Assembly (NCBI GenBank): GCA_017525235.1
Contig: JAFXTC010000038.1
Coordinates: forward strand, 1-64,000
Reading direction: 5' to 3'
Source: Bacteroidaceae bacterium
Lineage (GTDB): Bacteria > Bacteroidota > Bacteroidia > Bacteroidales > Bacteroidaceae
DNA: 64,000 nt
Below are positions 8,873-28,176 of the stretch, in pieces; position 1 is the stretch's first letter; every line of letters begins with the position of its first letter. A program made the position numbers and the translations under genes. The notes below the pieces were generated by a model. That model saw only the letters and a program-made list of their open reading frames with translations. It did no database searches and had not been told where the DNA came from.

Positions 8873-8902
8873 TTGAAAAAAACAAAAAGATTACTATATT
8901 TG
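8873..8902 (+). promoter_or_regulatory. Promoter of the second giant GLUG protein
   Basis: TTG at 8873-8875, 19 nt, then TATATTTG at 8895-8902, followed by a leader almost the same as that at 2660-2718. Confidence 0.75.
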
Positions 8903-8958
8903 TGCGCGAAAACACAGAAAACGTTAAATCTAAAAACTATAAACCAAACTTTGTTAAC

Positions 8959-11900
8959 ATGAAACAGAAACTTTACTCTCTTTTCCTGACTGCTCTGCTA
9001 TGTCTGGCAGGCAGTAGTGTGGCAATGATGGCACAGATTCCTGAGCCTACAGCCAAATGGACTTTTGAGAACACCGAGGACCTGATGGCTCCACAGGTAG
9101 GTAGTCTGACAATGACACCTTGCCTGATAGGAAGCTACTCCATCACGCCCTCGACGCTCAGTGAAACAGGCATCGTCTCGGCTGACGGTCCCACAGAAGG
9201 CAGCAAGTCACTTTACATGCCTAAGGCTGCTGCCCTGAAGGTATCACGTGCCGAAGGTGCTGAGACTTCGACCTCGTACACCATCTTGATGGATATCATG
9301 GTGCCTAATGCAGTCGATTTCAACGGTTTGCTGCAGATGGACGAGGCTAACAACAACGACGGCGACCTGTTTACCAACAAAAACCAGATTGGTATCGGTT
9401 CTATGGGCTATGCAGGCAACATCAAGAACGATACATGGTATCGCGTGGTGTTTACCTACAACGAAAGCAACCCCGCAGGTTCACAGGCCAAGCTCTATGT
9501 AAACGGAATAAAGATTAAGGAGGGCGGTGCGAACACACGTCATGTGATGGCCCCCTTCGGCTTCTATCTGCTCTGCGACGAATCTGGCGAAAAGGTGGAC
9601 TATACCCATATCGCCACAGCAGCCTTCTGGGAAACACCCCTCACCGATGAGGAGGTAAGCGAACTGGGAGCTGCTGTCCCCGCTGAAGTGGTGGAGATTG
9701 GCACAGCCGATGCGCTGCGCGACTTTGCTGCAGCCGTAAATAACGGCGAGGATTTGAGTGCCGTGCTGACAGCCGACATCGACCTGGGCGGTGCATGGGA
9801 AACACCCATCGGTACCAGTGAGAACAACTTCAGCGGCACATTCAACGGTCAGGGCTATAAGATTACAGGCTTCAACGCTACTTGTGACGTTGACGGCGGC
9901 GGCCTCTTCGGTATGACCAACGGTGCTGTCATCAAGAACTTCAGCATCTACGGTAGCCTCACTCCGACCAACGGAACGGGCTTCGGTGTGATAGGTTATC
10001 CCTCTGGCAGTAACATCTCGGGCATCCACTCTTATCTGGAGATTGAGGTTCCTGCATCATCAAACGCTATCCACCATGTGGGCGGCGTTGTAGGTTCCGC
10101 TCGTGGCAATAACACCATTACAGGCTGTACCTTCCACGGCTCTATGCAGGTGGGCGATGGCAACCACGACAACTTTGCCGGTGTCGTAGCCTATCTGGGC
10201 GGCGACAAGGTAACATTCTGTGCCAACTACGGTACCATCACCTTCGACACCCCAAGCTGTGCAGCAGGCGGTATAGCAGGCTACTGCAACAACGAGGGCT
10301 CGTGGGTTCAGGGCTGTCTGAACATGGGTAAGGTGAGCTGTAGCGACCCAGAGGCAAATACCGGTAATACAGGTGCCATCGTTGGTCGTCTGCGTACCCA
10401 CGACGCTGCAAAGATGACAGGTAACTGCTGGCTCGAAGGCACTTCAGCAGCTGCCGCCAAGGATGCAGGCACTGTCAAGATGGAGACAGCCTTCTGCTTC
10501 AACGAGGCTCAGTATGTAAGCGGCGAGGTGTGCTACAACCTGAATGGCGACCAGACACTCATCGGATGGTACCAGACACTTCCTGGCGACAATGCTCCCG
10601 TACTTCTTGACCCCACGCACGGACAAGTCTTTAAGAACGGACGTCTGCATTGTAACGGCGATCCCTGCGAAGACACCGTATTCTCGAATGAGAACATTGG
10701 TACCACACAGGATGCCCACAACGTGGTGGACGGCTTCTGCGACTATTGCGGATTGTTCTTCCCCGACTTCAAGGTGCCCAATGCCGACGGATTCTACGAG
10801 ATTGCCAATGCAAGACAGCTTGCATGGTTTGAGTACAAGGTGAACACGGGCGAACTGACAGCCAATGCCATACTGACTGCCGACATCGACTTTGCCGACA
10901 TGATGCCCGAAGGTGCTAATCCCGAGGAAACGCAGATTGCCTGGACTCCCATCGGTGACTGGGGTAATACCCGCGGAGTTGCCAGTGCAGGGTTCAAGGG
11001 TCACTTCGACGGAAAGGGCCACACCATCAAGAACCTGAATACTACAGCAAAGCAGAACTTCTTCGGTCTGTTCGGTGTGCTCTCTTCGGGAGCTCTCATC
11101 GAGAACTTCACCATCTACGGTACATATAACACCATTTACCAATACACCGGTGGTATTGCCGCTTATTTGCGCGACGAGAGTCCCACCCTGCGCAACATAC
11201 ACAGCTATGTGAACATCAACAACACATGTGTTGGCGGCCGACAGGGCGGTATCATTGGCGGCGCAATGCTTGACAATGCCAACTTTAAGACCACTATCGA
11301 GAACTGTATCTACTCAGGTACACTCGACGGTAACGATGCCGGCGGCGGCGGTAACTATGGCGGTATTGTGGGTTATGTAAACAACAACAAGGCCAATGTT
11401 ATTGACATCACCAACTGTCTGTTCGACGGTGAAGTGGTGAACAACAACGAGACCCCCGGCGGCTGTACCTTCGGTGGTATCGTAGGTTACAACAACGGTG
11501 GTACTGCCACCATCAAGAACTGTCTGTCACTCGGTAACGTAAGTGCTGCTGAGAACAAGTACGGTCAGTTCTTCGGTGCCCTGAACGGCAACAACTCAAC
11601 GTTTGTCAACTGCTATTATGTAGGCAGCTTCATCAACGGAGCTTCAAGCGGCGGCAAGGCCAAAGGCGACACACCAGTATTGGTTGACAACTACACGCTT
11701 GCCAGCGGCGAGGTTACATGGAAGCTGAACGAGGAGGAATTCTTGGATGCCGTTTGGCGTCAGGAAATCGACAAGGACGTGTATCCACAGCCCACAGGCG
11801 TTGGTGCCTTTGTTTATCAGATTCCCGACGGATATGCAAGCGTTTCGGCAGACAACCCCGAATCATTTACAACCTTCCGCGACGGCGTTATCGAGAACGA

Positions 11901-14520: not shown

Positions 14521-14643
14521 TGGGTTAGCGGTTAGTGGTTAGCGTTTAGGAAACGATAACGAAAACCAAAAACCAAAAAAGGCTCTCGCCCTTACGGGAG
14601 AGCGGGGAGAGGGTCTTAAACCGCTAACCGCTAACCGAAAAAG
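14521..14643. repeat. Composite repeat-rich 3' flank, copy 2
   Basis: Same parts in the same order as 8653-8782: four GGTTAGC-type heptamers (14523-14550), hexamers, the CTCTCGCC/GGGAGAG palindrome (14581-14617) and a CTAACCG array (14620-14637). One heptamer fewer than the first copy. No gene. Confidence 0.85.
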
Positions 14644-14679
14644 GAAGGCGCAGCATGAAAGTGCTGCGCTTTCTTTTTC
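14644..14679 (+). terminator. Terminator of giant gene B
   Basis: A 12-bp stem (GAAGGCGCAGCA with TGCTGCGCTTTC, one G-T pair), 6-nt loop, then TTTTTCT. Close copy of the terminator at 8783. Confidence 0.88.
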
Positions 14680-14680
14680 T

Positions 14681-14743
14681 ATTCCGTTCGGAAAAGAAAA
14701 ACAAACTTTTCTTTTGCTTTTCTCTCACTTCTTCGTACCTTTG
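14681..14743 (+). promoter_or_regulatory. Palindrome-borne promoter, upstream copy (P1)
   Basis: CCGTTCGGAAAAGAAAA faces TTTTCTTTTG across a short loop. TTTTG at 14712-14716 serves as -33, then 19 nt, then TACCTTTG at 14736-14743. GAGAC-TAC-GTCTC at 14743-14755 follows at the likely transcription start. Confidence 0.65.
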
Positions 14744-14763
14744 AGACTACGTCTCTAACTTAC

Positions 14764-14828
14764 TCACGCTCGGGAATAAAAATAAAAGTAATTTTATTTT
14801 GTATTCCGCTCGCTTATTCGTAACTTTG
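14764..14828 (+). promoter_or_regulatory. Palindrome-borne promoter, downstream copy (P2)
   Basis: CGCTCGGGAATAAAAATAAAA faces TTTTATTTTGTATTCCGCTCG with a 4-nt centre. TTTTG at 14797-14801, 19 nt, TAACTTTG at 14821-14828. Same architecture as P1, 85 bp downstream, and 21 nt from the endonuclease start. Confidence 0.7.
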
Positions 14829-14849
14829 AAACCCAAAGTAACGAAGAAG

Positions 14850-16649
14850 ATGAAAAGATATAGAACTTTAATCACTCTTGTGGTGCTGATGTGCTTTGTC
14901 GGCACATGGGCTGGTGTGCCCTATGAGTACTACGTGAGCGTGAATGGCAAGAAGAAAGCGGAGCTGAAGTCGGCGTTCTACAGTGTTATTAATCCTCACA
15001 CAAGAATAGGGTATAGTGGTCTTTGGGCTGCCTACGAGAAAGTGGACTATCTGGAGAATACAAATGCTAAAGGTCAGCATCAGGTAATGGACTACTACAG
15101 CGATGAGGTGTACTACTTCGAGGGCAACGGCGCGGCTGTGGGCGGCATGAATAAGGAACATGTGGCTCCCCAAAGTTGGTGGGGTGGTGGAACAAGCATT
15201 GCTGTGGGCAATGACCTTATTCAGGTTATCCCATCGGACTCGAGGGCAAATAATGCAAAGGGCAACTACCCTCTGGGTGTGGTGAAAGGCTCTGCCTCTT
15301 ACCCCTCAAATCCCAGCCTGAATACACGTATGAAGACGGGGAAAAATGCTAACGGGGAGTTGGTGTTTGAACCATGCGACGAGTATAAGGGTGACTTTGC
15401 ACGAATCTATTTCTATGTGGCAACTTGCTACCCTGATGTTAACTGGGAGAACCGCAATGATGTGAATGTGTCGTTCAAAAAAGAAGATTACCCGACGCTG
15501 AAGTCGGACATCCTGCCGATGCTGCTGCAATGGTCGAGACAAGACCCTGTGTGCGAGTGGGAGATTATCCGCAACGAACGTGCGTACGGAGTACAAGGTA
15601 ACAGAAACCCCTTTGTTGACTTCCCTAATCTGGCAGAATATATCTGGGGCGACAGCGTGAATTATGCCTTTGATTTGTATACAACAACCACCGGTATTCC
15701 CAGCGGCGAACAGGAACCGCCTGTATTCGAGGTTGAGCCCGACAATTTCGTCTTTGCTGCTTTCCCCGGAGAACCCAGCGAATCCCGTTTGGTGACGGTG
15801 AAGATGGTAAACACAGTGGAACAGAATTTTACGGCTCAGGTGGAGGGACCGTTTGAGATTTCTGACGATCCGGATGCCGATGATGAGGACTGGTCGAAGA
15901 CCATGATGCTGCGCGGTTCACAGAAGGGCTCGTCCTTCTATATACGCCTCTCAGCCCAAGAAGAGGGTAGGTATACTGGCACCATTACATTCAGCACAAG
16001 GGGCGTGAAGGATGTTGTGATTACCCTGACGGGTAACGTGCGTGAGCAACAGGGTGAATTGATTTCGTTCCTTGAGGACTTTGAAAAAGGCTCGAAGCCC
16101 AGCTATGCCGCAGCTTCTGTTGACTGTACGGCTGCTACGTGGATGTTGACAGATGCCCTCCTTAGTAAAGAACAGAACACCAACGGCACCACTTCTGTGA
16201 GGATGAAGGGCTCGGGCACATTGGAGATGATGACAGATAAAGAGGGCGGCTGCGACTCGCTGTGGTTCTATGCAGGCAACTATAACAACGATTCGGGTGC
16301 GACGCTGACGGTCAGCTATTCTTTGGACGGCGGACAGACATGGACGGAGGTAGGAAGCTTGCTGTCGTTCGACGGTTGGCAGCGCTATGCCTTTGCCATT
16401 CAGCAGCCGGGCAATATCCGTCTGAAGTTCACGGGCGGTGGTGTAAGCAAAATGCGTGTGAACATTGACAATATTGAGATGAGCGGCTTCAATAACGAGC
16501 CTGTGGATCCGGACGGCATTGCTATTGTTAACGAAAACGAAAACTGGAACGAAAACAAGGTTGGTATCTACAACTTGGCTGGTCAGCGCATCAGCAAGCT
16601 GCAGAAGGGCATCAACATTGTGAATGGGAAAAAGGTTGCGATTAAGTGA
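14850..16649 (+). CDS. Secreted endonuclease I family protein with anchor and sorting tail
   Basis: Start 14850 chosen because it begins a signal peptide (MKRYRTLITLVVLMCFVGTWA); the frame is open further upstream but crosses the promoter. The 599-aa product has an endonuclease I (EndA/Vibrio Dns-type) domain at about 25-285, with the catalytic-histidine motif NKEHVAPQSWWG and the DLIQVIPSDSRANN-K-N-PLG segment typical of the family. A beta domain follows (about 305-405), then a choice-of-anchor J-like domain (about 412-560, EDFEKG start, VNIDNIEMSGF end), an Asn/Glu linker and the GIYNLAGQR tail. It should cut extracellular DNA or RNA. The tail ends GKKVAIK rather than GKKVLY because another sequence replaces the last codons (see 16637). 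Confidence 0.88.
   Translation: MKRYRTLITLVVLMCFVGTWAGVPYEYYVSVNGKKKAELKSAFYSVINPHTRIGYSGLWAAYEKVDYLENTNAKGQHQVMDYYSDEVYYFEGNGAAVGGMNKEHVAPQSWWGGGTSIAVGNDLIQVIPSDSRANNAKGNYPLGVVKGSASYPSNPSLNTRMKTGKNANGELVFEPCDEYKGDFARIYFYVATCYPDVNWENRNDVNVSFKKEDYPTLKSDILPMLLQWSRQDPVCEWEIIRNERAYGVQGNRNPFVDFPNLAEYIWGDSVNYAFDLYTTTTGIPSGEQEPPVFEVEPDNFVFAAFPGEPSESRLVTVKMVNTVEQNFTAQVEGPFEISDDPDADDEDWSKTMMLRGSQKGSSFYIRLSAQEEGRYTGTITFSTRGVKDVVITLTGNVREQQGELISFLEDFEKGSKPSYAAASVDCTAATWMLTDALLSKEQNTNGTTSVRMKGSGTLEMMTDKEGGCDSLWFYAGNYNNDSGATLTVSYSLDGGQTWTEVGSLLSFDGWQRYAFAIQQPGNIRLKFTGGGVSKMRVNIDNIEMSGFNNEPVDPDGIAIVNENENWNENKVGIYNLAGQRISKLQKGINIVNGKKVAIK
16557..16636 (+). repeat. C-terminal tail cassette, copy 3 (interrupted)
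   Basis: Matches copies 1 and 2 through GGGAAAAAGGT and then diverges. The missing end (GGTGCTTTATTGATGGG) resumes at 16709. Confidence 0.9.
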
Positions 16650-16711
16650 GAGAAGAACTGAGCTCGCTCGAGTTCTTCCGAACGTGAGCAAGCTCGAGCG
16701 AAGCTCAAGGT
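16637..16711. repeat. 75-bp palindromic insert with AAGGT direct repeats
   Basis: Compared with copies 1 and 2, 75 bp are added here. AAGGT occurs at both edges (16632-16636 and 16707-16711), like a 5-bp target duplication. The interior has GAAGAACT facing AGTTCTTC and further GCTCGAGCG/CGCTCGAG palindromes. It supplies the last codons VAIK and the stop of the endonuclease. It is too short to encode a transposase, so a non-autonomous element, or a deletion in the other two copies, are both possible. Confidence 0.7.
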
Positions 16712-16838
16712 GCTTTATTGATGGGTTAGCGGTTAGTGGTTAGCGGTTAGCGTTTAGAAAACGATAACGAAAACGATAACGAAAAAGGCGTTAGCGTCAA
16801 TAACCAATAAACAATAAACTAAGAAAGAACAGTAAACC
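16712..16838. repeat. Repeat-rich 3' flank, copy 3
   Basis: Five GGTTAGC-type heptamers at 16724-16758, then AACGAT/AACGAA hexamers to about 16788, then AATAAAC units near 16806. The palindrome and terminator present in copies 1 and 2 are absent, so transcription may run on into the next gene. Confidence 0.78.
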
Positions 16839-17420
16839 ATGTATAGAATTTTAGTTATATTTTTCATACTTCTGGGAGGCTGCTGTAATGTTTCTGCTCA
16901 GCAGGTGAAGATGCGCGATGTGTTTGCCCAGACTCCCGACAGCATCATCCCGCTGATGACAAAAAACAACAAGCTGGATTGTATCGACTTTATCGAGAAC
17001 AATATGAGGGCAAGGGTAAAGAACAAGTTCGATTCCTATTCTGAGCTGACGGCTCTCACAACCGATTATCTCCGACTTCAGGTATCCGAAAAGAGCTCTA
17101 TTGAGATGAAAATCTTTAACGATTCGCTTCTTTGTCTGGTCAGAACCTACTACGGCCCGGCTGCCGACAGCGAAGTATATATATATAATGTAAGGTGGCA
17201 GCCTGTCTCTTATACCATAACCCGCCCCAAGGCCGACGATTTCTTTCAGCCAGATGCCGATGCTGAAGTCTGTGGTATGCTCCGCCAACTTCCACTCATA
17301 AAAGCTACCCTCTCGCCCGACGACACCACCCTGACATGGGAGCTTCAAATCACCGACCTGACAGAAACGCAGCAAAGAACCATAGAACACTCCCTAAGTT
17401 CTATTGCAGTTAAATTATAG
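16839..17420 (+). CDS. DUF3256 family exported protein
   Basis: A 193-aa protein with a signal peptide (residues 1-21, ending VSAQ). The body, beginning VKMRDVFAQTPDSIIPLMTKNNKLDCIDFI, matches my memory of DUF3256, a Bacteroidales-only periplasmic family of unknown function. Conserved Asp and Asn residues and a mixed alpha/beta pattern are visible but no catalytic motif. The EamA transporter starts 14 bp after its stop, so the two are probably co-transcribed. Confidence 0.78.
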   Translation: MYRILVIFFILLGGCCNVSAQQVKMRDVFAQTPDSIIPLMTKNNKLDCIDFIENNMRARVKNKFDSYSELTALTTDYLRLQVSEKSSIEMKIFNDSLLCLVRTYYGPAADSEVYIYNVRWQPVSYTITRPKADDFFQPDADAEVCGMLRQLPLIKATLSPDDTTLTWELQITDLTETQQRTIEHSLSSIAVKL

Positions 17421-17434
17421 ACTAAAGTCTAATA

Positions 17435-18313
17435 ATGTGGATCATATATGCTTTTCTTTCTGCAGCTTTGCTGGGCTGTTATGATGTTTGCAAGAAGCAT
17501 TCGCTGAGGGACAATGCTGTTATTCCCGTTCTGTTTCTGAACACCCTGTTCTGCTCTCTCATCTTCCTGCCTTTAGCCCTATCAGTTCCCGTTGGAGGGT
17601 GGGCGGTACAAAAGTACATTATACTGAAAGCCTGTATTGTACTCAGCAGTTGGATTCTGGGTTATATTGGCATAAAATACCTGCCGCTTACTTTGGTGGG
17701 CCCCATCAATGCCACACGGCCCGTAATGGTGCTGTTGGGCGCCTTGCTGATATTTGGCGAACGACTGAACCTATACCAGTGGATAGGTGTAGCATTGGCC
17801 ATTCTCAGTTTCTTTCTCCTAAGCCGTAGCGGCAAGAAAGAAGGGATTGATTTTCGCCATAACCGTTGGATATTCTGTATTGTAGGCGCAGCCATAACCG
17901 GAGCCTTGAGCGGTTTGTATGACAAATACCTGTTAGCCTCTCCCCAAGACGGTGGCGTGGGATTGGATAAACTCACCGTACAGAGCTACTACAACTTCTA
18001 CCAATGCCTGATGATGGGTATTGTACTCTTAACACTCTGGTATCCGCGCAGGCAGAAGAGCACACCTTTTCGTTGGGTATGGAGTATACCCCTCATAAGC
18101 ATCTTCCTGAGTATAGCCGACTATGTATATTTCTGCTCTCTGCACGAGGCAGGAGCACTGGTCAGCGTAGTCAGCATGGTGCGCAGAAGCAGCGTGGTAG
18201 TAAGTTTCATGATTGGTGCCTTCCTCTTTCACGAGAAGAATCTCCGAAGCAAAGCCATCGACCTTTTCCTTGTCCTCTTAGGAATGGTCTTCTTGTTCTT
18301 AGGAACGATTTAG
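17435..18313 (+). CDS. EamA/DMT family inner-membrane transporter
   Basis: A 292-aa, very hydrophobic protein with about ten predicted membrane helices in two halves (1-135 and about 145-292), the pattern of the drug/metabolite transporter superfamily. The motif GPINATRPVMVLLGALLIFGE near 88-108 is typical of EamA repeats. Substrate cannot be told from sequence. It follows the DUF3256 gene closely and faces truA convergently. Confidence 0.85.
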   Translation: MWIIYAFLSAALLGCYDVCKKHSLRDNAVIPVLFLNTLFCSLIFLPLALSVPVGGWAVQKYIILKACIVLSSWILGYIGIKYLPLTLVGPINATRPVMVLLGALLIFGERLNLYQWIGVALAILSFFLLSRSGKKEGIDFRHNRWIFCIVGAAITGALSGLYDKYLLASPQDGGVGLDKLTVQSYYNFYQCLMMGIVLLTLWYPRRQKSTPFRWVWSIPLISIFLSIADYVYFCSLHEAGALVSVVSMVRRSSVVVSFMIGAFLFHEKNLRSKAIDLFLVLLGMVFLFLGTI

Positions 18314-18333
18314 GTTAAGGCTGTTTCAACGAT

Positions 18334-18352
18334 AACGTTAACGAAAACCTAC
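18334..18352. repeat. Hexamer array between convergent genes
   Basis: AACGATAACGTTAACGAAAA, the same hexamer class as in the Asn/Glu linkers of the secreted proteins, here untranslated. Confidence 0.65.
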
Positions 18353-18374
18353 TAAGCTATTAACCTATCAACTG

Positions 18375-19103
18375 TCAATATGCAATCTCCACCAAAAACA
18401 GCGCATTACCCGGTACACTTTCACCGGCAGAGCAACGGTCTTTCTGCTCTATTACCTTGCAGAACTCTTCCTTCGTCATGCGGCCACGCCCTACTTCAAG
18501 CAGGGTTCCTACTATGGCGCGAACCATATTGCGCAAGAATCGGTTGGCAGTGATGGTGAAGCGCCACTGACCGGGGGCTATCTCATCCCAATGTGCTTCT
18601 GTAATGGTACACAGGTTGGTCTTGGTGTCTGTGTTCACCTTCGAGAAACTGGTAAAGTCCTGATACCGAAGCAGCATCTGTGCCGCTTCGTTCATAGCCC
18701 CGAAATCTATCTTCCCATGCAGAAGCCAGCTGTAATGACGACAGAAGGGATCCTTCTGCGTATGCACAAAATAGTGATAGGTCCTACTCGTGGCCGAGAA
18801 GCGGGCATGCATATCATCTGCCACTTGTTCTACCTTCTGCACCGCAATGTCTTGGGGCAGAATCTTGTTCAGTCGGTATGCAAGCTGAGGGCAATCCACA
18901 GCCTCCTCAACATCAAAGTGCGCCACCATCATACGGGCATGCACGCCGGCATCGGTCCTACCCGCTCCCACCACTTCTATTTCCCGTCGCAACAAGGTCG
19001 AGAGTCCCTGTTGCAGCGTCTCTTGCACACTAACCCCGTTGGGCTGAATCTGCCAACCGTGATAGCGTGTACCGTCGTAAGAGAGTGTTATAAAATAGCG
19101 CAT
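18375..19103 (-). CDS. truA: tRNA pseudouridine(38-40) synthase TruA
   Basis: 242 aa from the ATG at 19103 ([18 protein letters not shown]); an in-frame upstream ATG at 19130 would overlap the previous gene and adds no conserved sequence. The catalytic Asp lies in [11 protein letters not shown], and the [20 protein letters not shown] motif near the end is typical. It converts uridines 38-40 of the tRNA anticodon stem to pseudouridine in the cytoplasm. It begins 14 bp after the nuclease gene stop, on the same strand, so it may share that transcript. Confidence 0.95.
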
Positions 19104-19117
19104 ATCGTTCACTCTCA

Positions 19118-20038
19118 TTACCAGCTCCACTCGGCAAGGTTGCGGGTTGCTTCCACTTGATTCTCCACATCGTCGGGCAGGTTAGGGAAGAAGTTGATAC
19201 CCGTTCGTGCCTCCAGTTCGTCGATGCTGATGGTATAGTCCTTTATGTTGCTGGCCTTATTGTTCCTGTGCTCAACCCAGAAGGCGATGGCGTGGTACTG
19301 GTTGTTGTTGTCTAACAAAAGAATCGCCATCCAGAAGTATTTGGGAACGGGAATAGTGATTCTGCTATCCGCGATAAACGGATTTGCCACGCTTTCGGTT
19401 ATTGTTGTTGAGCCGCCTTTCGCCAAATAGAGCGCTTTACGCTTGCTTTTGGTGAACCCTAGCTTATGTACCCAGTTCTCCATATTCAGCCAGATACCCG
19501 AGTTAAAGTCGTAGAGCTGAGGCTGGATATTAGAGAGGTAATAAGTCTGTCCGTTGGCATTTTGAGACATCAGACGGTCTTGCGAGTTGACGATATGTCC
19601 GCGTGTATAGCCGCTACCAGAGTAGTTCGACAAGCGTGTGCGGTACATCAGCGGAATGATAGAATCCTCCTGAAACGGGTCGCCGTCCCAATAGGCGCCC
19701 TTCCACGTGGTTCCCTTCCAGTTGTTGCGGTTCCAGTTGGTGACTGCATTCAGGTCGGTTACGGCGTATGCTGCCCAACGCTGTGTTTTCTGATCCTTGT
19801 CCCACTCCTCGGTGTAGGTAACGCCGTATCTGTTTGTGCCGTGCACAATAAACATGTTCAGGTCCTTTACCTCGGGCACCTCCATGCGTTGTTGGTAGTC
19901 TCGGGCTCCAGTACCAATAATGGAAAACAGACGGTCGCTGTTTTGGTTTCCGTTTTGGCTTCCGTTATCATCTTTATTGCATGCTGCAAGGCAAACTATT
20001 GTGCAGAGCAACGTCAGAAAGAAATAGCTTTTCTTCAT
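19118..20038 (-). CDS. Lipoprotein DNA/RNA non-specific endonuclease
   Basis: Start set at 20038 ([20 protein letters not shown]), which gives a clear lipobox LAAC; the frame upstream has no conserved features. After the Cys comes NKDDNG, an acidic stretch like the surface-export signal of Bacteroidetes lipoproteins. The 306-aa product has the NUC domain: [12 protein letters not shown] (the family DRGH motif with T for D, catalytic His kept), and [14 protein letters not shown] with the metal-binding Asn. It probably degrades DNA or RNA at the cell surface. Third gene after L31 on the minus strand; truA follows directly. Confidence 0.88.
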
Positions 20039-20146
20039 TGTGTGGGAATGGGTTAGGTTTTCTTGGGAAAGAAAAAGAGGTGCAGACGTTCTTCTCATCT
20101 ACACCTCTCCTCCTGTTATTTTCTTTGTCTTGAGGCTCGCTCGGAA

Positions 20147-20398
20147 TTACTTCTTCATGCGAGCGTAGCGGCTCATGAACTTATCAACACGACCGGCTGT
20201 GTCAACCAGCTTGCTCTTACCAGTATAGAAGGGGTGAGAGGTGTTACTGATTTCCAACTTAATCAAGGGGTAAGTTTCGCCCTCGAACTCAATGGTGTCA
20301 TTGCTCTTTGCAGTAGAGCGGCTCAGGAACATATCGCCGTTGCTCATGTCCTTGAACACTACGGGGCGATAGTTTTCGGGATGGATTCCTTCTTTCAT
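20147..20398 (-). CDS. rpmE2: 50S ribosomal protein L31 type B
   Basis: 83 aa from the ATG at 20398 ([17 protein letters not shown]); the open frame extends upstream without L31 similarity. It lacks the Cys pairs of zinc-binding L31, so it is the type B form, and carries TSHPFYTGK and AGRVDKF. It is a large-subunit protein in the central bridge. A promoter-like element lies at 20474-20481. Confidence 0.95.
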
Positions 20399-20473
20399 TT
20401 TTTCTTTTGTTTTATGCTCCCGAATTTCCGTAAACGGAAGGTGATAAGGAGCTGTTATTAATGATTTTGCGTG

Positions 20474-20505
20474 CAAAGGTATGTCTTTTTTCTGTTTCCA
20501 CCAAG
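20474..20505 (-). promoter_or_regulatory. Promoter of rpmE2
   Basis: On the minus strand TACCTTTG at 20481-20474, with CTTG at 20505-20502 as a weak -33. Confidence 0.6.
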
Positions 20506-20545
20506 AGAATCGCGAAATATTTTGTGGGGTGCTGCCTTTTGGGCA

Positions 20546-20579
20546 TAATAAAAGGGGCAAGATTGAAAATCTGCCCCTT
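20546..20579 (-). terminator. Terminator of the small beta-barrel gene
   Basis: On the minus strand AAGGGGC-AGATT pairs with the other arm with a single bulge, followed by TTTTATTATG. It lies 31 bp past the stop at 20610. Confidence 0.75.
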
Positions 20580-20609
20580 ATAATTAAATTAAAGTCTGAT
20601 GTCTAAATC

Positions 20610-21173
20610 TTAGAACATGTAACCTACGTTGATGTAGAGGTTTCTGTTCTTGCTAGTACCCCAGTTAGTTGTCTTAAGCAGACCGAAGTCATAACCAATA
20701 CGCAGCTGGAACTTCTTGTATTCAGCACCAACACCTATGCCGAGACCGAAATCAAATTTCTTGCCATCCCAACCATCAGCGCTAAAGATCTTGGTGTCAT
20801 AGTACTTACCAGCTATACCAATAGCCATGTAAGGACCAAACTCTCCAAACAGAGAGAAGTCATCGTTGAAGCTATAGCGGTAACCGCCCTTGATGGGGAT
20901 TTCCAGGTAGTAAGGCTTTGCTTTTTCACCTCCGGCATCCTTATATCCCTTCTGTGAGATTCCGAGACCTAATGTTGCGAACCAGTGGTTGCTGAAGTTG
21001 TACTCACCGCGAACACCTGCATTAAAACCAATCTTATTAGCACCGCCAGCATTGTCGGTAACTGTAGAAACGTTTAAACCTACTGTAGGACCAAAACGGA
21101 ATTTCTTGAAGTCCTGAGCGCTAATTGTCAATGTAACAAGCGCAAGTGCTAACACTGTAAAAAGTTTTTTCAT
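20610..21173 (-). CDS. Small outer-membrane beta-barrel protein
   Basis: 187 aa; signal peptide MKKLFTVLALALVTLTISAQ, then alternating strands with Gly/aromatic residues typical of the 8-stranded OMP_b-brl_2 (PorT-like) family, for example FRFGPTVGLNVS near the start and LYINVGYMF at the end. It should sit in the outer membrane; its function is not known. It has its own promoter and terminator, so it is a single-gene unit. Confidence 0.82.
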   Translation of the reverse strand: MKKLFTVLALALVTLTISAQDFKKFRFGPTVGLNVSTVTDNAGGANKIGFNAGVRGEYNFSNHWFATLGLGISQKGYKDAGGEKAKPYYLEIPIKGGYRYSFNDDFSLFGEFGPYMAIGIAGKYYDTKIFSADGWDGKKFDFGLGIGVGAEYKKFQLRIGYDFGLLKTTNWGTSKNRNLYINVGYMF

Positions 21174-21234
21174 AATGGATAATGTTTTAGTTAGTAATTA
21201 TGTTAAAAACTCGCTTTTCTTTTAATTGTTTTTG

Positions 21235-21266
21235 CAAATATAGTCGATTTCGCAATATCATCCAAA
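21235..21266 (-). promoter_or_regulatory. Promoter of the small beta-barrel gene
   Basis: On the minus strand TATATTTG at 21242-21235 with TTTG at 21266-21263, 20 nt apart. Confidence 0.7.
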
Positions 21267-21310
21267 CAAATTTTAACTTTTCTGCAAATTTGTGTCATTT
21301 TTTTTAATGA

Positions 21311-21342
21311 ATAAGGGGCAAAAACTGATTTTTGCCCCTTAT
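21311..21342 (-). terminator. Hairpin after the OB-fold lipoprotein gene
   Basis: A perfect 14-bp stem (ATAAGGGGCAAAAA with TTTTTGCCCCTTAT) around CTGA, 14 bp past the stop at 21356. No T run follows on the minus strand, so it may act by stem strength or stabilise the mRNA end. Confidence 0.65.
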
Positions 21343-21355
21343 GATGTGTTAAAGA

Positions 21356-23347
21356 CTATTTTATTCCAAAGAAGATGATGCGTTTTTCTGATGTTACGGT
21401 TACCGTTGTCTGTGCTGCAACCTCGAACTCGTATTTATCATCCTCTGTAACGGTGATGGTGTAGGGTGAGTTCTGAGCTGCGCCATCGTTGGGTTGAACA
21501 GTAACTTCCTTTATTAATTCTTCGCCATTCTTTAGGAGTACTTTAGCGGGATCTCCTCCCTTCCAAGTGATAGCATAGAAGGTGTGCTTGCCGGCAGGAA
21601 CGCTGAGGGTGAAGTCGCCAGCTGCCTTAGAAGTACCAATCTTTAGGACTTTGCAATCAGCTACGCCGTTGATGGTGGCTACTCCATTGTCGTAGAAGTT
21701 GGTGCCGCCTGTGTAAGAGAGGCTGATGCCGTACTCTGATGTGTCACCACTATCGCCGCCGCCACCTTCATCTCCGCCTTCTCCGGCCTCGAGGATTTCA
21801 ACGTTGGCATTCTTAATTTCAGGAGTAACGACGCCCTCCTTGACGTACTTCATCAGGTTTCCGGTAATCTTAACCTTAGAGCCTTTGACAAATTTGCTTA
21901 CGCCCTCGGGCAGATTAGCCCAATATGCCTCGAACATATTGTCGCCATCCTTGGTGTCAGCCATCCAGAATGTCTGCTGGTTCTTGCTAACGCTTCCTAC
22001 AACCTCAGTGATATAACCGGTTACGGTATAAACCTCGGTAGATGTGCCACCATCGGCTAAAGCATTAGCCAGTTCAACAGCCTGAGCACAAGTAACGGGT
22101 GTTCCTTCTACGATATCGCCACCACCGCCGTCGCCAGCTTCAAGGATTTCAACCTTTGCATTTTTGATTTCAGGAGTAACAGCACCGGTAGTCTTATTAA
22201 CGTACTTCATGAGCTGACCGGTAATCTTAACCTTAGAGCCCTTAACGAATTCTGTTACTCCTTCTGGCAGATCTGCCCAATATGCCTCGAACACACGACC
22301 GCCATCCTTGGTGTCAGCCATCCAGAATGTCTGTTGGTTCTTGCTAACGCTTCCTACAACCTCTGTAATATAGCCAGTAACGGTATAGGTCTCGGTTGAG
22401 GTTGCGCCATCAGCCAGTGCGTTGGTCAGTTCAACAGCCTCGGCACAGGTAACGGGTGTTCCTTCTACGATATCGCCACCGCCGCCGTCGCCAGCTTCGA
22501 GGATTTCAACCTTTGCATTTTTGATTTCAGGAGTAACAGCACCGGTAGTCTTATTAACGTACTTCATGAGCTGACCGGTAATCTTAACCTTAGAGCCCTT
22601 AACGAATTCTGTTACGCCTTCTGGCAGATCAGCCCAAAATGCCTCGAACACACGACCGCCATCCTTGGTGTCAGCCATCCAGAATGTCTGTTGGTTCTTG
22701 CTAACGCTTCCTACAACCTCTGTGATGTAACCTGTAACGGTGTAAACCTCAGTAGAAGTTGCGCCATCTTCCAGTGCATTGGTGAGTTCAACAGCCTCGG
22801 CACAAGTAACGGGTGTACCTTCTACGATGTCACCACCGCCCCCACCTTGGGCATTGATAGAATAAACATAGGCTTTACCCTTGCCAACGGTTTCGGGAGT
22901 ATTGCCTTTGTAGTTAACAACCTTACCGTAGACAACTACCTCATCACCCTGTTTAATATCAGAAACAGCGGTGAACTTCTTGTTGCCCGGTCCATAAACT
23001 TGGAAGGCGGTAAAGGTCTTGCTCTTGTTGCCCTCATCAATCATGGTGAAGGTCATGTTTCCATACTGGCTGATAGTTGACTCTGTTGTGGTGTTGGATG
23101 CCACCTTACCCTTAACGTAAACAGCCTGCTCAGATTCTACATCGGCATCTAACTGACTGATGTATGCCAAAACGCCAGCCACGTTAAACGGATTCTCTAA
23201 TGTACCGTCTCCAGCGGGAGCAACTTCGACGTCAGGCTCTTTTTCTTCGTGGCCTGGAAGTACATACGGTGCAGGAACGTCCTCGCAGCAGGTGAAAGCA
23301 AATACGCCTAACAAGGCGAGGATGGTGCTTTTAAAAGTCTTTTTCAT
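21356..23347 (-). CDS. DUF6359-like OB-fold lipoprotein with three near-identical repeats
   Basis: 663 aa. The N-terminus MKKTFKSTILALLGVFAFTCC is probably a lipoprotein signal, though the lipobox is weak. Residues about 40-165 (GDGTLENPFNVAGVLAYI to VYSINA) look like the DUF6359 OB-fold type. Three 119-aa repeats follow (about 175-530), each GTPVTCAEAVEL, VYTVTGYITEVVGS, TFWMADTKDG, KGSKVKITGQLMKYV and a Gly-rich hinge; the third is the most divergent. A C-terminal beta domain (about 550-663) ends FFGIK. OB folds of this kind bind nucleic acids or glycans; which one applies here is unknown. It sits just downstream of a DUF5689 lipoprotein and a TonB-receptor-like barrel on the same strand. 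Confidence 0.8.
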   Translation of the reverse strand: MKKTFKSTILALLGVFAFTCCEDVPAPYVLPGHEEKEPDVEVAPAGDGTLENPFNVAGVLAYISQLDADVESEQAVYVKGKVASNTTTESTISQYGNMTFTMIDEGNKSKTFTAFQVYGPGNKKFTAVSDIKQGDEVVVYGKVVNYKGNTPETVGKGKAYVYSINAQGGGGGDIVEGTPVTCAEAVELTNALEDGATSTEVYTVTGYITEVVGSVSKNQQTFWMADTKDGGRVFEAFWADLPEGVTEFVKGSKVKITGQLMKYVNKTTGAVTPEIKNAKVEILEAGDGGGGDIVEGTPVTCAEAVELTNALADGATSTETYTVTGYITEVVGSVSKNQQTFWMADTKDGGRVFEAYWADLPEGVTEFVKGSKVKITGQLMKYVNKTTGAVTPEIKNAKVEILEAGDGGGGDIVEGTPVTCAQAVELANALADGGTSTEVYTVTGYITEVVGSVSKNQQTFWMADTKDGDNMFEAYWANLPEGVSKFVKGSKVKITGNLMKYVKEGVVTPEIKNANVEILEAGEGGDEGGGGDSGDTSEYGISLSYTGGTNFYDNGVATINGVADCKVLKIGTSKAAGDFTLSVPAGKHTFYAITWKGGDPAKVLLKNGEELIKEVTVQPNDGAAQNSPYTITVTEDDKYEFEVAAQTTVTVTSEKRIIFFGIK
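21747..22818 (-). repeat. Three 357-bp direct repeats inside the OB-fold lipoprotein gene
   Basis: The landmark CCTTCTACGAT begins at 22104, 22461 and 22818, exactly 357 bp apart (119 codons). The two upstream units are nearly identical in DNA; the last diverges after the KYVNK position. The repeats are long and similar enough for homologous recombination to change their number. Confidence 0.92.
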
Positions 23348-23370
23348 TGTTGTATATTTTTTTGTTTTTA

Positions 23371-23392
23371 TTTTCGTTTTCGTTTTCGTTAC
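23371..23392. repeat. Hexamer array, TTTTCG x3
   Basis: Reads AACGAA-type on the minus strand; it starts at the stop region of the DUF5689 gene and forms the leader of the next gene. Confidence 0.7.
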
Positions 23393-24237
23393 TCAACGAT
23401 ATCACTCATGAAACGCATGCCTAACTGCCATCCGCCGTTGTAGCGACCGAGTACGCCATAGATGGTGTACACGTGACCTTCCTTGATGGGATAGCTGGCA
23501 AAATCGGCGTATGTGCTTGTACGCAGGTCGAGTGTGCCTCCACCCTCCAGATTGATGGTGTTGGTAACACCGTTACCTGTATCGGCATCTTCGGGTGCAG
23601 CCAAAACCCAACGCTCTGTGCTCTTGGGTGTAATGGAACCCCTTACGCGGACAATACATCCTGTCCACTGGTCTTTGCTGCGGTCTTTAACATCGGCAAA
23701 GTCGAGTGTATCGATACGTGAGGGATCGGGAGCGCCCAAGAATTTAACACGACTCCAGAAAGCCTGCTGGCTCATACGTCCGATGCGCTCTGTTCCTGCC
23801 GCATTCTTGGTGGGGTAGCCCAACTGGGCGTTGCTGCCGTAACCGCCGATATAAACATCCTTCAGGCTGAACAGAATCTCTTGTCCGGGCTGGATGTAAT
23901 TATAAATAGCATTCATGTTTACGCCGATAATCAGGAAGCCCGGATCCTGCTTGGTGCCGTCTTGCAGCACAATCTGTTGGGTCAGGTTTCCTCCGTCATC
24001 TGTGCAGATGACAGTTCCGCGCAACATGCTGTCTGTGGTAATCTGCTCAAACTTGTTTGAGCCTGTAGTATTGCTGTATAGTGTCTTCAGTTCCTGAATG
24101 GAGATAACGTTATGCTCCAGAAGTTTCTTGTTCCAGATGGTGTAATTGGTGTATACGTCGTCTTCCCAACCAGTATTCTGGCAGGCAGAAGCCGCAAAGC
24201 CCAAAACCAAGGTGAGCAGTATATAACTCTTTTTCAT
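23389..24237 (-). CDS. DUF5689 domain lipoprotein
   Basis: 282 aa; signal MKKSYILLTLVLGFAASAC with lipobox ASAC, then QNTGWEDD (acidic, surface-export-like). The body begins with ISIQELKTLYS and has strands DSMLRGTVICTDDGGNLTQQIVLQDG and GQEILFSLKDVYIGGYG, which I recognise as DUF5689, an OB-like family seen beside TonB receptors in Bacteroidetes. By position it may be the surface partner of the barrel at 24274, but it is not a SusD protein: there is no SusD-like helical core. The barrel gene ends 36 bp upstream, so they are likely one operon. Confidence 0.82.
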   Translation of the reverse strand: MKKSYILLTLVLGFAASACQNTGWEDDVYTNYTIWNKKLLEHNVISIQELKTLYSNTTGSNKFEQITTDSMLRGTVICTDDGGNLTQQIVLQDGTKQDPGFLIIGVNMNAIYNYIQPGQEILFSLKDVYIGGYGSNAQLGYPTKNAAGTERIGRMSQQAFWSRVKFLGAPDPSRIDTLDFADVKDRSKDQWTGCIVRVRGSITPKSTERWVLAAPEDADTGNGVTNTINLEGGGTLDLRTSTYADFASYPIKEGHVYTIYGVLGRYNGGWQLGMRFMSDIVE

Positions 24238-24273
24238 ATCTCTTCTGTATTTATATATAATAATGTATAGGGG

Positions 24274-26946
24274 TTAGAAGCGGTAGTTGATGTTCAGCAT
24301 AAAGTTGAATCCCTGAGCATAGAACTTCTTGGGGTTCTTGCTGAAGTCATAAATACGCTCGTTGCCCTGTGTTCCGTTCTTGTTGGTGCTGTAGTTACTA
24401 CGGCTCTGCTCGTAACCGCCTGTGCAGATTTTGCGGTTGTTGAGTATGTTGGTAAGTGTAAGGTTGATGCTCAGGGGGTGATGAGCTACGAAGAACTGTC
24501 GACCGATGCTGGCATCCAGCATAAAGCCTCCGTTTCCTCTGGCCTGTGCGGGGACAGCTTTATCGTTGATGGTCTGTGCGCCAGTAACCAAGTCTTCTGT
24601 AACATAGGGAGTCCCAGATGCATCCACAGGATTAAAGGTCTTAAGTGTTTCGTGGTAGCGCAGACAGGGGCTGTAAGAGAGGTAGATGCGGTCGTAGTAG
24701 TTACCTATGAGTGACAGGTACCACCTCTTTATGCGGTAGTTGATAGCTAAGCTATAAGCAGAAAGCGGTGTGCCGCTCTCGCGCATACCCTTGTTGCGAC
24801 AAATATCTTGGTTCTCTGTACCGTATGTGCTGAGTGTATAGACACACTTTGAGTCGTCGTTGTACTTATTGTCGCTCCAGGTTCCCATAGCGGTGATGTC
24901 GAGGCTGCTGGTAATCTTGAACTTAGCTCCCCATTCAACACCATAATAGTCTCTGCTGACATCGGTAAGAGAAACGTAGGTAAAGCTGTTAACATCGTCG
25001 AAGTAGAAATTCTGCCACTCTGTTCCGTGATATGTGTGGGTGTAGTAACCTGTGACGTTCAGTTGCAGCCAGTTGTTATTCAGGCGGTAGCCCACCTCTG
25101 CAGATGTGATTTTCTCGTTGCGCAGGTTCTTGACGAAGTTGTTGTTCATCTCGGGACTTACGAAAGCTGTGCTGGCAAAGGGGGCGCGGGTCTCGAATCC
25201 AAGTCCTAAGGCAATGCCATGACCCTTGCCCAGATTGAATGTGGCTCCCATTTTAGTTCCTCCGTCCAGGAAGCCAGCCTTTTTGCTTTCTCCGTATGAG
25301 AACTTCACTTCGCGGCCGTTCTCGTCAACAAAGTTGGGGCAGATACCATTGTTCATCTTACCGTCGCGCCACATCTGTGTACCGCCAATCTTGGCAGAGA
25401 TGAAGTAGTGGGTTATACCCTTATCGAACGTGAACGAGGTCCAAGCTTTTGCGTCGCGGACAAAGATGTTGTAGTCGTAACCATAACGGTCGCCCTCGCC
25501 AATCTGATGTGGACTGGTAAAGAGCTTGTCGTAAAGGTTGTAGTATGTTTCGTTGGCACCAGGCATATAGGCGCCAATGGCGTAGTTATTGACGTTAGTC
25601 ATGTATTTGGCTCCCAACATATCCTCGATAGTCTGGTAGTGCATACCCTTGTTGGTGCCTAACTGAATACCTGTACGCCACTTGATGTTCTGAGTAATAG
25701 TGTAGTCGAAAGTGCTACCCAGGCGCAGATTCAGGTGGTCGTTGTGCTTGGCAGAGATGAAGTAAGCAGCATCCTTGCCCAGCGCATTGTTGGTGTGGTT
25801 GGCTGCATAGAGGCGGTCGAAGTTAATTTGGCGGTTAGCCTCGCTGCGTGTCCAGTAATCGTAGCTATCCTGCCATGCACCCACTCCGTATTCCCAGTTC
25901 TGGATGTTTCCTCCATTGCCATCTACATCTGCAACATCCCATACATCATATTGGCTGCTGGGGAAGTTCTTCCAGTAGTCGGGGGCAGGGTTCTGCGAAT
26001 CGTTGTACTGCAGACGTGTGGCGCTGTATTTAACGTACTTGCCAACAAGGCTGGTGGTAAGCTTCATCTTGTCGTTAATCTTATAATCCCAAGTCAGCAA
26101 GAGGGTGGGCTCAAAGTTGTTAACAACACGACTGGAGCGCATCTTACCGTTCTGGTAACCCCAGTAAGGGTTGTACTGGCGGTCGTTGGCGAGCCAGTAA
26201 GCCTCGTCGGTCGAGGCACCCTGCTGTGCACGTTCTGTGGGGTTGCCCCATGTGGCAATATTAAATGAATGCTTGTCGTTAATAACTTTCTGCAAGCTCA
26301 GGAAGTATCCCAGGCTGTTGTAGAAGGTACCCTTAACGGCAGCCGTCTGCATGTTGGCCCAGCGGTAACCGATAGTGCCGAAGAAAGCCCATCCCTTATC
26401 CGTAAGTCCTGTTCCGAATGTATACATTGCTCGGATGGTATAGTTACGGTTGGCTCCTGAAAGAGTTACCTTATGCCCGGCAGGCATCATGCTGGCGCGG
26501 AAGTTGTAGTTGCCGCTTCCTCCCAGGTTGGGAACGCTGAAGGAATTGTCCTCGAACGGGCTTGAAATATCCTGATTACGTGTGGCGTCGTTCATACCGC
26601 CAATGGTGGAGAAATTAAAACGTCCGTTCTCGATGTTATTAACCATTACACCATTCATGTACATATCATTGTAACGTGAGTCGTACGAACGGAACTTGAA
26701 GCGTACCGGACTCCACTGATAACCGATGTTGTTGGTGTAAACATTATTGGCAGAGCCAACCTGAATGATGTTGACTGTCTGGTCATCATCTTCGCCCAAC
26801 TGCGACTCCGACAAGACAAAGGATGACCCCTCCTCGTGGATTTCATCCTCTAAGTTACTGACAGAAATCGTGTCAGTTTTCGTCTGAGCGAAACAGAATG
26901 GTGCGGCAAACAATGCCAGAACCAAAAGCTGATGCTTCTTTCTCAT
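24274..26946 (-). CDS. TonB-dependent receptor-like outer-membrane protein
   Basis: Start at 26946 (MRKKHQLLVLALFAAPFCFAQ) because it yields a signal peptide; the longer frame to 27012 overlaps the promoter. The 890-aa product has a plug-like stretch (about 40-150, including RFKFRSYDSRYNDMYMNGVMVNNIENGRF) followed by a long barrel with aromatic-ended strands, closing in NINYRF, a typical final strand. It lacks the N-terminal carboxypeptidase-like domain of SusC proteins. It should import a substrate across the outer membrane with TonB energy. Neighbours are two OB-fold-type lipoproteins downstream and a divergent nuclease-family gene, so oligonucleotides or a phosphate-containing substrate are possible. 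Confidence 0.82.
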   Translation of the reverse strand: MRKKHQLLVLALFAAPFCFAQTKTDTISVSNLEDEIHEEGSSFVLSESQLGEDDDQTVNIIQVGSANNVYTNNIGYQWSPVRFKFRSYDSRYNDMYMNGVMVNNIENGRFNFSTIGGMNDATRNQDISSPFEDNSFSVPNLGGSGNYNFRASMMPAGHKVTLSGANRNYTIRAMYTFGTGLTDKGWAFFGTIGYRWANMQTAAVKGTFYNSLGYFLSLQKVINDKHSFNIATWGNPTERAQQGASTDEAYWLANDRQYNPYWGYQNGKMRSSRVVNNFEPTLLLTWDYKINDKMKLTTSLVGKYVKYSATRLQYNDSQNPAPDYWKNFPSSQYDVWDVADVDGNGGNIQNWEYGVGAWQDSYDYWTRSEANRQINFDRLYAANHTNNALGKDAAYFISAKHNDHLNLRLGSTFDYTITQNIKWRTGIQLGTNKGMHYQTIEDMLGAKYMTNVNNYAIGAYMPGANETYYNLYDKLFTSPHQIGEGDRYGYDYNIFVRDAKAWTSFTFDKGITHYFISAKIGGTQMWRDGKMNNGICPNFVDENGREVKFSYGESKKAGFLDGGTKMGATFNLGKGHGIALGLGFETRAPFASTAFVSPEMNNNFVKNLRNEKITSAEVGYRLNNNWLQLNVTGYYTHTYHGTEWQNFYFDDVNSFTYVSLTDVSRDYYGVEWGAKFKITSSLDITAMGTWSDNKYNDDSKCVYTLSTYGTENQDICRNKGMRESGTPLSAYSLAINYRIKRWYLSLIGNYYDRIYLSYSPCLRYHETLKTFNPVDASGTPYVTEDLVTGAQTINDKAVPAQARGNGGFMLDASIGRQFFVAHHPLSINLTLTNILNNRKICTGGYEQSRSNYSTNKNGTQGNERIYDFSKNPKKFYAQGFNFMLNINYRF

Positions 26947-26981
26947 GATAATAGTAGTTTGTTTGTTGTTATATATTTCTG

Positions 26982-26989
26982 CAAACTTA
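26982..26989 (-). promoter_or_regulatory. -7 element of the TonB-receptor operon
   Basis: TAAGTTTG on the minus strand, 36 nt from the start at 26946. No good -33 is seen. Confidence 0.5.
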
Positions 26990-27073
26990 CAAAAAATATT
27001 TCGACTTACCATACGTTATAATAAAAAAAAGAGAAAAAATCCAAAATGTTATGTATGTTATATAAAAAAGTCT

Positions 27074-27081
27074 TATCTTTG
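27074..27081 (+). promoter_or_regulatory. -7 element of the divergent nuclease-family gene
   Basis: TATCTTTG, 58 nt before the start at 27139; the -33 region is not clear. With the element at 26982 it makes a back-to-back promoter pair. Confidence 0.55.
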
Positions 27082-27138
27082 CAAGGATTCAATTAATGTG
27101 CATAACTATAAACAATAAACAAATACCATAGAAAAGGG

Positions 27139-28176
27139 ATGAAGAAAATAGCATTTACCTTTGTGTGTGTGATGTTGCTTGCTGCATCAGCTTGTGTACG
27201 AGCTCAGATTCAGTGTCATGCAGTGTGTTTCTACAATCTAGAGAACATTTTCGATACGGTTCATGATTATGGCAAGAACGATTTCGACTTCCTGCCAAAC
27301 GGCTCGTATCATTGGACCAAAAACAAATATGAGAACAAGCTGAAGAATATGGCTCAGGTGATTTGCGACCTAGGTACTGACAAAGTGCCGTACGGAGCCA
27401 GCATTATAGGTGTTTCCGAGGTGGAGAACGACAAGGTTATGGAGGATCTTTGTTCTCAGCCCAACATGAAGAAGCGCGGCTATAAGTTCATTCATTTCGA
27501 AGGTCCGGACAAGCGAGGTGTTGACTGTGCTCTTATCTATAATCCCAAGGCCTTTCAGGTAACTAAGGCTTTCCATAAACTATATGTCTATGAGGACGGA
27601 GACACGACGCATGCCACTCGCCCCTTCCTGTGTGTTCAGGGCATTTTGGCCGGCGACCCCTTAACTGTTATCGTATGCCACTGGCCCAGTAGAGGTGCTG
27701 AAGGTATCTTCCGTGAATATGGAGGCCGTCAGGTGCGTGCCCTTACAGACAGCATTCGTGCTGCCGACCCCGATATGCGCATCATGGTAATGGGCGATAT
27801 GAACGACGATCCCGACAATGCTTCTATGGCTAAGTGTCTGGGCGCCAAGCGTAAAATGAAAGATGTGGGCGAAGGCGATTTCTATAATCCCTGGTGGGAT
27901 GTATTGCGTAAGGACGGTCAGGGAACCCTCTCTTATCAGGGAGCCTGGAACCTGTTCGACCAGATTGTACTCAGCAAGAATCTGCTGGATTTGGACGGCG
28001 CAAAGGACTATAGCCATTTAACCCTTTTCAAGTACCATATCTTTAAGCGCGATTATCTGATACAACAGGAAGGCAAGTACAAGGGAACCCCCAAGCGTAC
28101 CACATCGGGCGGCGTATGGCTGAACGGATACAGCGACCACCTGCCCACCGTTACCTATCTTGTAAAGAAATTGTAA
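27139..28176 (+). CDS. Secreted endonuclease/exonuclease/phosphatase family protein
   Basis: 345 aa; signal peptide MKKIAFTFVCVMLLAASAC-VRAQ, where both lipoprotein processing at SAC and ordinary cleavage after RAQ are possible. The EEP fold motifs are present: FYNLENIFD (metal-binding Asn), GVSEVEND (metal-binding Glu), VVCHWPSRG, VMGDMNDDPDN (catalytic Asp/Asn) and GYSDHLPT (catalytic His). Family members cleave DNA, RNA or phosphate esters; the substrate cannot be told. It is transcribed away from the TonB-receptor operon from a shared intergenic region, and I infer a joint role. Confidence 0.88.
   Translation: MKKIAFTFVCVMLLAASACVRAQIQCHAVCFYNLENIFDTVHDYGKNDFDFLPNGSYHWTKNKYENKLKNMAQVICDLGTDKVPYGASIIGVSEVENDKVMEDLCSQPNMKKRGYKFIHFEGPDKRGVDCALIYNPKAFQVTKAFHKLYVYEDGDTTHATRPFLCVQGILAGDPLTVIVCHWPSRGAEGIFREYGGRQVRALTDSIRAADPDMRIMVMGDMNDDPDNASMAKCLGAKRKMKDVGEGDFYNPWWDVLRKDGQGTLSYQGAWNLFDQIVLSKNLLDLDGAKDYSHLTLFKYHIFKRDYLIQQEGKYKGTPKRTTSGGVWLNGYSDHLPTVTYLVKKL

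Follow-up and report, generated by a model that had tools for sequence, protein, structure and literature searches.

Gene organization of the locus

The 64,000-nucleotide stretch analysed here (the window; positions 1 to 64,000 of contig JAFXTC010000038.1, from a Bacteroidaceae genome of 2.6 Mb in 69 contigs that is 72.7% complete) encodes a TonB-dependent-receptor-like outer-membrane barrel, two lipoproteins with OB-type folds and three exported nuclease-family proteins, which together form a candidate DNA-import locus. The features are as follows:

14850-16649, + strand: endonuclease I (EndoI), exported, with a C-terminal extension; a looser member of the cluster (Pfam Endonuclease_1 PF04231, 8.6e-44; EndoI recurs in such loci)
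19118-20038, − strand: NUC-type (Endonuclease_NS) lipoprotein; open reading frame (ORF) to 20098, start at 20038 more likely (PF01223, 5.5e-35; homologues in barrel loci of other genomes)
21356-23347, − strand: OB-repeat lipoprotein, 663 aa (PF01336, tRNA_anti-codon, 2.5e-10; repeat alignment)
23389-24237, − strand: DUF5689 lipoprotein, probably at the surface, predicted tandem OB fold, counterpart of RA0C_RS04920 (PF18942, 5.4e-43)
24274-26946, − strand: TonB-dependent-receptor-like outer-membrane barrel, counterpart of RA0C_RS04915; ORF to 27012, start at 26946 more likely (BLASTP, tree, predicted fold)
26947-27138, no strand: divergent promoter region common to the barrel and EEP genes (sequence read directly)
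27139-28176, + strand: endonuclease/exonuclease/phosphatase family protein (EEP), exported, divergent from the barrel (Exo_endo_phos_3 PF19580, 5.7e-94; the divergent position recurs)

A preliminary description had placed three exported nucleases of unrelated families here, with EEP divergent from an operon of the barrel and both lipoproteins; Pfam matches (Endonuclease_1, Endonuclease_NS and Exo_endo_phos_3), gene positions and the fold of the barrel bear this out. Two details were not recovered: no sorting tail was found in the window's EndoI (three relatives in the fusion loci described below have one), and no DUF6359 match was found for the lipoprotein labelled DUF6359-like. The EEP protein carries the motifs NLEN, SEVEN, GDMND and SDHLP, the NUC protein TRGH and YLSN, and EndoI EHVAP, all of which we take to be catalytic, and the lipobox Cys of NUC is followed by acidic residues (CNKDD). 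EEP matches the extracellular nuclease ExeM/NucH weakly (6.1e-05, far below the cut-off), and a sequence search of the PDB gave it no relative at E ≤ 0.01.

Predicted folds of the barrel and the lipoproteins

The predicted fold of the barrel is that of a TonB-dependent transporter (TBDT): its AlphaFold model (pLDDT 67, pTM 0.70) matches such transporters, with Fiu at 1.7e-23, and the 50 shown of the 205 Foldseek matches at E ≤ 0.001 are all TBDTs. By sequence, the barrel lies just under the Pfam TonB-receptor cut-off (26.6 versus 27 bits), Pfam Plug gave no match in the five ordinary barrels scanned, and PDB searches found no relatives beyond the CarboxypepD_reg part.

The DUF5689 model (pLDDT 78, pTM 0.72) gave 21 PDB fold matches at E ≤ 0.001, the best being Teb1 (1.3e-5); judged in part by title, we take them to be Teb1, RPA and HIN-200-type tandem-OB DNA-binding proteins. 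The structure prediction that the preliminary description had proposed as a check on its OB folds thus returned a tandem OB with DNA-binding proteins as best matches. This fold supports but does not show DNA binding, given the low TM-scores (0.23 to 0.48) and the fact that most OB-fold entries of the PDB bind nucleic acids. Sequence searches of the PDB gave DUF5689 no convincing relative (best E 0.07), and its match to the NCBIfam family lipo_M949_1556 (5.1e-14) is far under the cut-off (51.9 versus 475 bits). In the OB-repeat lipoprotein, Pfam finds a nucleic-acid OB fold near the start, with the 2.5e-10 applying to the whole protein and no single stretch passing. Its three repeats of ~115 aa hardly differ from one another, which points to a recent duplication.

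Homology to genes essential for natural transformation

In the literature searched, DUF5689 was found named in one paper, a transposon screen of Riemerella anatipestifer, a related bacterium of ducks (PMC8459023, available in part). According to its available passages, markerless deletion of either RA0C_RS04915 (the barrel) or RS04920 (DUF5689) leaves no detectable transformation, and R. anatipestifer is the only species for which we found this requirement in print. The barrel of the window aligns with that of the R. anatipestifer locus L105 (CCUG25054) over 902 columns at 26% identity (BLASTP, 272 bits, E 5e-82), and the two fall in one clade of 42 of the 51 tree rows, with support of 93/92, under the tool's mark of 95. 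Pfam matches the N-terminal CarboxypepD_reg domain in the L105 barrel and not in that of the window. Visual inspection of the 22-row barrel alignment (A1) shows the domain in 14 rows and not in the other 8; we did not treat it as defining, as there are barrels within the clade that do without it.

The gene order in L105 is ComEC (PF03772, 1.9e-57), a 145-aa gene, a carboxyltransferase, EEP, barrel and DUF5689, which puts the locus four genes from comEC. As this order fits the tag steps from RS04895 (ComEC) to RS04920, RS04910 is probably EEP. The available part of a second study reports that R. anatipestifer tonBA and tonBB mutants transform less, as do cells deprived of phosphate (PMC8383284).

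The source genome itself encodes a short ComEC (385 aa, on another contig, C51), DprA and a single triple-HhH ORF, which resembles RS02645, the three-HhH protein described as essential in the available text on R. anatipestifer (PMC8459023). As a raw count, competence genes lie near 9 of 171 loci, a set in which not every locus includes a barrel. ComEC accounts for four of the nine, all under one genus label and with L094 and L105 seemingly from the same genome; DprA occurs in four loci and RecA in two, one locus being common to both. DprA or RecA is near loci L091, L092, L163, L168 and L172, the last of which is a fusion locus; this too is a raw observation. The Flavobacterium locus L168 has recA and dprA close downstream of its barrel/DUF5689 pair (13927-17851).

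Conservation and nuclease linkage

Strong DUF5689 matches (E ≤ 2.5e-24) were found in 57 of 119 Bacteroidales genomes, the source genome included. At least 40 of the 57 have EEP within 10 kb, at least 37 of them in divergent orientation, and the divergent matches are 2.9 to 4.4 kb apart, leaving room for a barrel gene. In the remaining three (L034, L041 and L049), the genes run co-directionally in the order NUC, EEP, barrel, DUF5689.

A profile built from the 22 barrels of A1 was searched against 198 Bacteroidota genomes, again including the source genome. Barrels at E < 1e-200 and DUF5689 at E ≤ 4.9e-43 occurred in the same 28 genomes, adjacent in 27 and apart in one (G135), and weaker matches were wider (barrel at E ≤ 1e-30 in 66, DUF5689 at E ≤ 1e-15 in 33). 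EEP was divergent in 16 of the 20 foreign loci read across the phylum (27 foreign loci in all). The family of genome G130, Weeksellaceae by named match, has the barrel in 114 of 120 genomes and EEP in 19 of 20 loci read. Carriage is patchy in the window's own family, with the barrel at E ≤ 1e-100 in 86 of 151 genomes and at E ≤ 3.3e-242 in 78.

EndoI and NUC genes stand beside DUF5689 more often than by chance: 19 lie within 10 kb (start to start) of the 59 DUF5689 places in the 57 genomes, where uniform placement would predict 0.79 (Poisson 5e-20), and 17 remain with the window excluded (3e-17). The 19 are spread over 14 genomes and 12 family labels. Independence of the genomes is assumed in this test; sampling was even, and six family labels appear twice within the 57. 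Another 86 EEP loci, from 70 genomes of this sample, served as controls and have two nearby EndoI/NUC genes, one of them in the fusion locus L171. The co-occurrence of nucleases with these genes in Bacteroidales, which the preliminary description had suggested searching for, is observed.

A variant with DUF5689 fused to endonuclease I

Six loci (L171-L175 and L181) were fetched in which EndoI and a weak DUF5689 match share one reading frame. A related barrel lies directly upstream of the fusion in L171, L172, L173 and L175, while L174 begins inside the fusion and L181 has no barrel. Pfam resolves three of the fusions into EndoI, DUF5689 and a secretion tail, the DUF5689 match being above the cut-off in L171 and L175 and below it in L172. 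The four barrels of this variant fall outside the 42-row clade in the tree. A glycosyltransferase gene (c3) comes after the fusion in five of these six loci and also after the ordinary pair elsewhere, which places both versions in the same genomic slot. We put at even chances the broader proposal that Bacteroidota have a general pilus-free outer-membrane DNA import, built of a TonB-powered barrel, HIN-200-like tandem-OB lipoproteins and exported nucleases, with two interchangeable versions in which DUF5689 is either a separate lipoprotein or fused to a secreted EndoI.

A proposed DNA-import system and its alternatives

The gene set and its conservation, the homology to transformation-essential genes, the predicted OB and TBDT folds and the ComEC, DprA and triple-HhH genes make it reasonably probable that the locus encodes an outer-membrane system that imports DNA with TonB energy and corresponds, in Bacteroidales, to the R. 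anatipestifer pair; its purpose is probably natural transformation. The OB-fold lipoproteins would capture extracellular DNA at the cell surface; the exported nucleases (EEP, and here also NUC and EndoI) may cut, trim or process it or make ends; the barrel would pass it to the periplasm with TonB energy; and the triple-HhH, ComEA-like periplasmic protein, ComEC and DprA would then take over and complete uptake, which would make the source organism transformable.

How DNA passes the outer membrane of Bacteroidota is an open question to which this reading offers a testable answer. For Porphyromonas gingivalis, the available part of a 2024 paper describes ComEA and ComEC as essential and import into the periplasm as unclear (PMC11532111). 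One passage of the R. anatipestifer screen describes homologues of these essential genes as widespread among Bacteroidetes and above all Flavobacteriaceae; another, incomplete in the text available, has the RS04915 homologue detected in Flavobacteriaceae alone (PMC8459023). A link between the pair and a conserved Bacteroidales locus that has nucleases and a DNA-binder fold supplies named candidate genes and is relevant to gene flow among these organisms.

Several observations weigh against this interpretation. The experimental evidence comes from R. anatipestifer and none from the source organism or Bacteroidales, barrel identity is only 26%, carriage in the window's family is incomplete, the TM-scores of DUF5689 are low and OB folds are able to bind other ligands. 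The preliminary description had named, as refuting its own scavenging proposal, a trio of barrel, DUF5689 and EEP that occurs without nucleases and responds to an unrelated nutrient; 43 of the 57 DUF5689 genomes lack EndoI/NUC within 10 kb, an upper bound as the assemblies are drafts, yet EEP is itself a nuclease family. According to the excerpted screen, F. johnsoniae has the homologues, yet the conditions tried there yielded no transformation of it (PMC8459023). The authors of the second study put the tonBB effect down to iron (PMC8383284, available part), and M949_1556, which gives its name to the NCBIfam family matched by DUF5689 and is not equated here with RS04920, is tied to antigenicity and pathogenicity by a title in a reference list.

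The exported nucleases could equally feed a nutritional pathway, in which DNA or RNA fragments are imported for phosphate, nucleosides or carbon and the transformation role is a by-product. The preliminary description took this view, and its 'cut, bind, import' scheme is well supported by the recurrent nucleases, the fusions and the tandem-OB fold. Three exported nucleases in one window, the EndoI/NUC enrichment near DUF5689 and the weak ExeM/NucH match of EEP all suit scavenging, as does the consideration that nucleases could destroy transforming DNA. The purpose, as distinct from the import, fared less well: DNA uptake for transformation is likelier because the R. anatipestifer counterparts are essential for it and comEC is near the pair there. 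The fall in transformation on phosphate removal is unlike what uptake under phosphate starvation would predict (PMC8383284, available part). The proposed purine link found no support: the genes hpt, adk and pgeF, to which the preliminary description had linked the nucleases, are not common neighbours, as hpt-adk-obgE-pgeF gave no cluster in at least 4 of 41 neighbourhoods, most of which end short of the AICARFT position. The nutritional purpose is thus the less likely one, and we regard scavenging as an unlikely explanation of the locus.

We consider it improbable that the barrel imports another, perhaps phosphorylated, ligand, with EEP as a phosphatase and the loss of transformation in R. anatipestifer an indirect envelope or nutritional effect. 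EEP-fold enzymes do include phosphatases, a TBDT fold says nothing of the ligand, and the iron explanation for tonBB and the antigenicity title fit such a role. The repeated linkage to two further nuclease families and the EndoI-DUF5689 fusion argue against it, as do the 21 DUF5689 fold matches, presumably all of Teb1, RPA or HIN type. It is very improbable that the nucleases have a defensive or matrix-clearing function, degrading DNA of neutrophils or biofilms, and lie near an unrelated uptake operon as a habit of surface-gene regions; the window's EndoI is ~5 kb from the operon's last gene and on the other strand, which would fit, but two nucleases at the 86 control EEP loci compare with 19 at the 59 DUF5689 places, and the co-directional NUC-EEP-barrel-DUF5689 runs also speak against it.

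Neighbouring genes

Between the OB-repeat lipoprotein and NUC, on the same strand, are genes for a small outer-membrane barrel and ribosomal protein L31, and truA overlaps the end of the NUC gene. Across loci, recurring neighbours named by eye were a glycosyltransferase (12 of 41), dihydroorotase (12 of 41) and a MORN-type lipoprotein (8 of 41), which we take as housekeeping. The purine genes of the preliminary description are present, hpt, adk and pgeF as Pribosyltran, ADK and Cu-oxidase_4 matches and AICAR formyltransferase as an AICARFT match at 39632-40813; the latter match is limited to positions 76-311 of the bienzyme family, and the gene may therefore encode no more than the formyltransferase part. 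Two very large ORFs just upstream of EndoI (2719-8652, 1977 aa; 8902-14520, 1872 aa) have no Pfam match. An exopolysaccharide/capsule-type cluster occupies 43680-63980, with SLBB/Poly_export, pyruvyl transferase, glycosyltransferases, Wzi and a GNVR/AAA tyrosine-kinase-type protein. A phage origin was rejected, three proteins having no PHROG match.

Comparison with known systems

The locus most resembles the RA0C_RS04915/RS04920 pair, sharing the order of barrel and DUF5689 lipoprotein, the divergent EEP and full-length barrel homology. It differs in that its barrel lacks CarboxypepD_reg, its DUF5689 is shorter (282 versus 469 aa in L105), it has NUC/EndoI and an OB-repeat lipoprotein close by, and its comEC is on another contig. 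SusCD-type and other Bacteroidota TBDT/lipoprotein uptake pairs likewise combine a TonB-dependent barrel with a lipoprotein partner; here, the ordinary barrels scanned gave no Plug match, the partner has a predicted tandem OB fold, and a Pfam scan of 37 window proteins found no SusD, in agreement with the preliminary description. An ordinary glycan locus was rejected, there being no SusD-type lipoprotein among the barrel neighbours scanned. The source genome shares ComEC, DprA and an HhH protein with the type IV pilus/ComEA/ComEC/DprA transformation machinery, whereas the outer-membrane step here would be a TonB barrel and no pilus with secretin. Finally, the competence nuclease EndA of S. pneumoniae is, like the putative role of NUC here, a surface Endonuclease_NS family enzyme acting on incoming DNA, while NUC is a Gram-negative lipoprotein encoded near a barrel operon.

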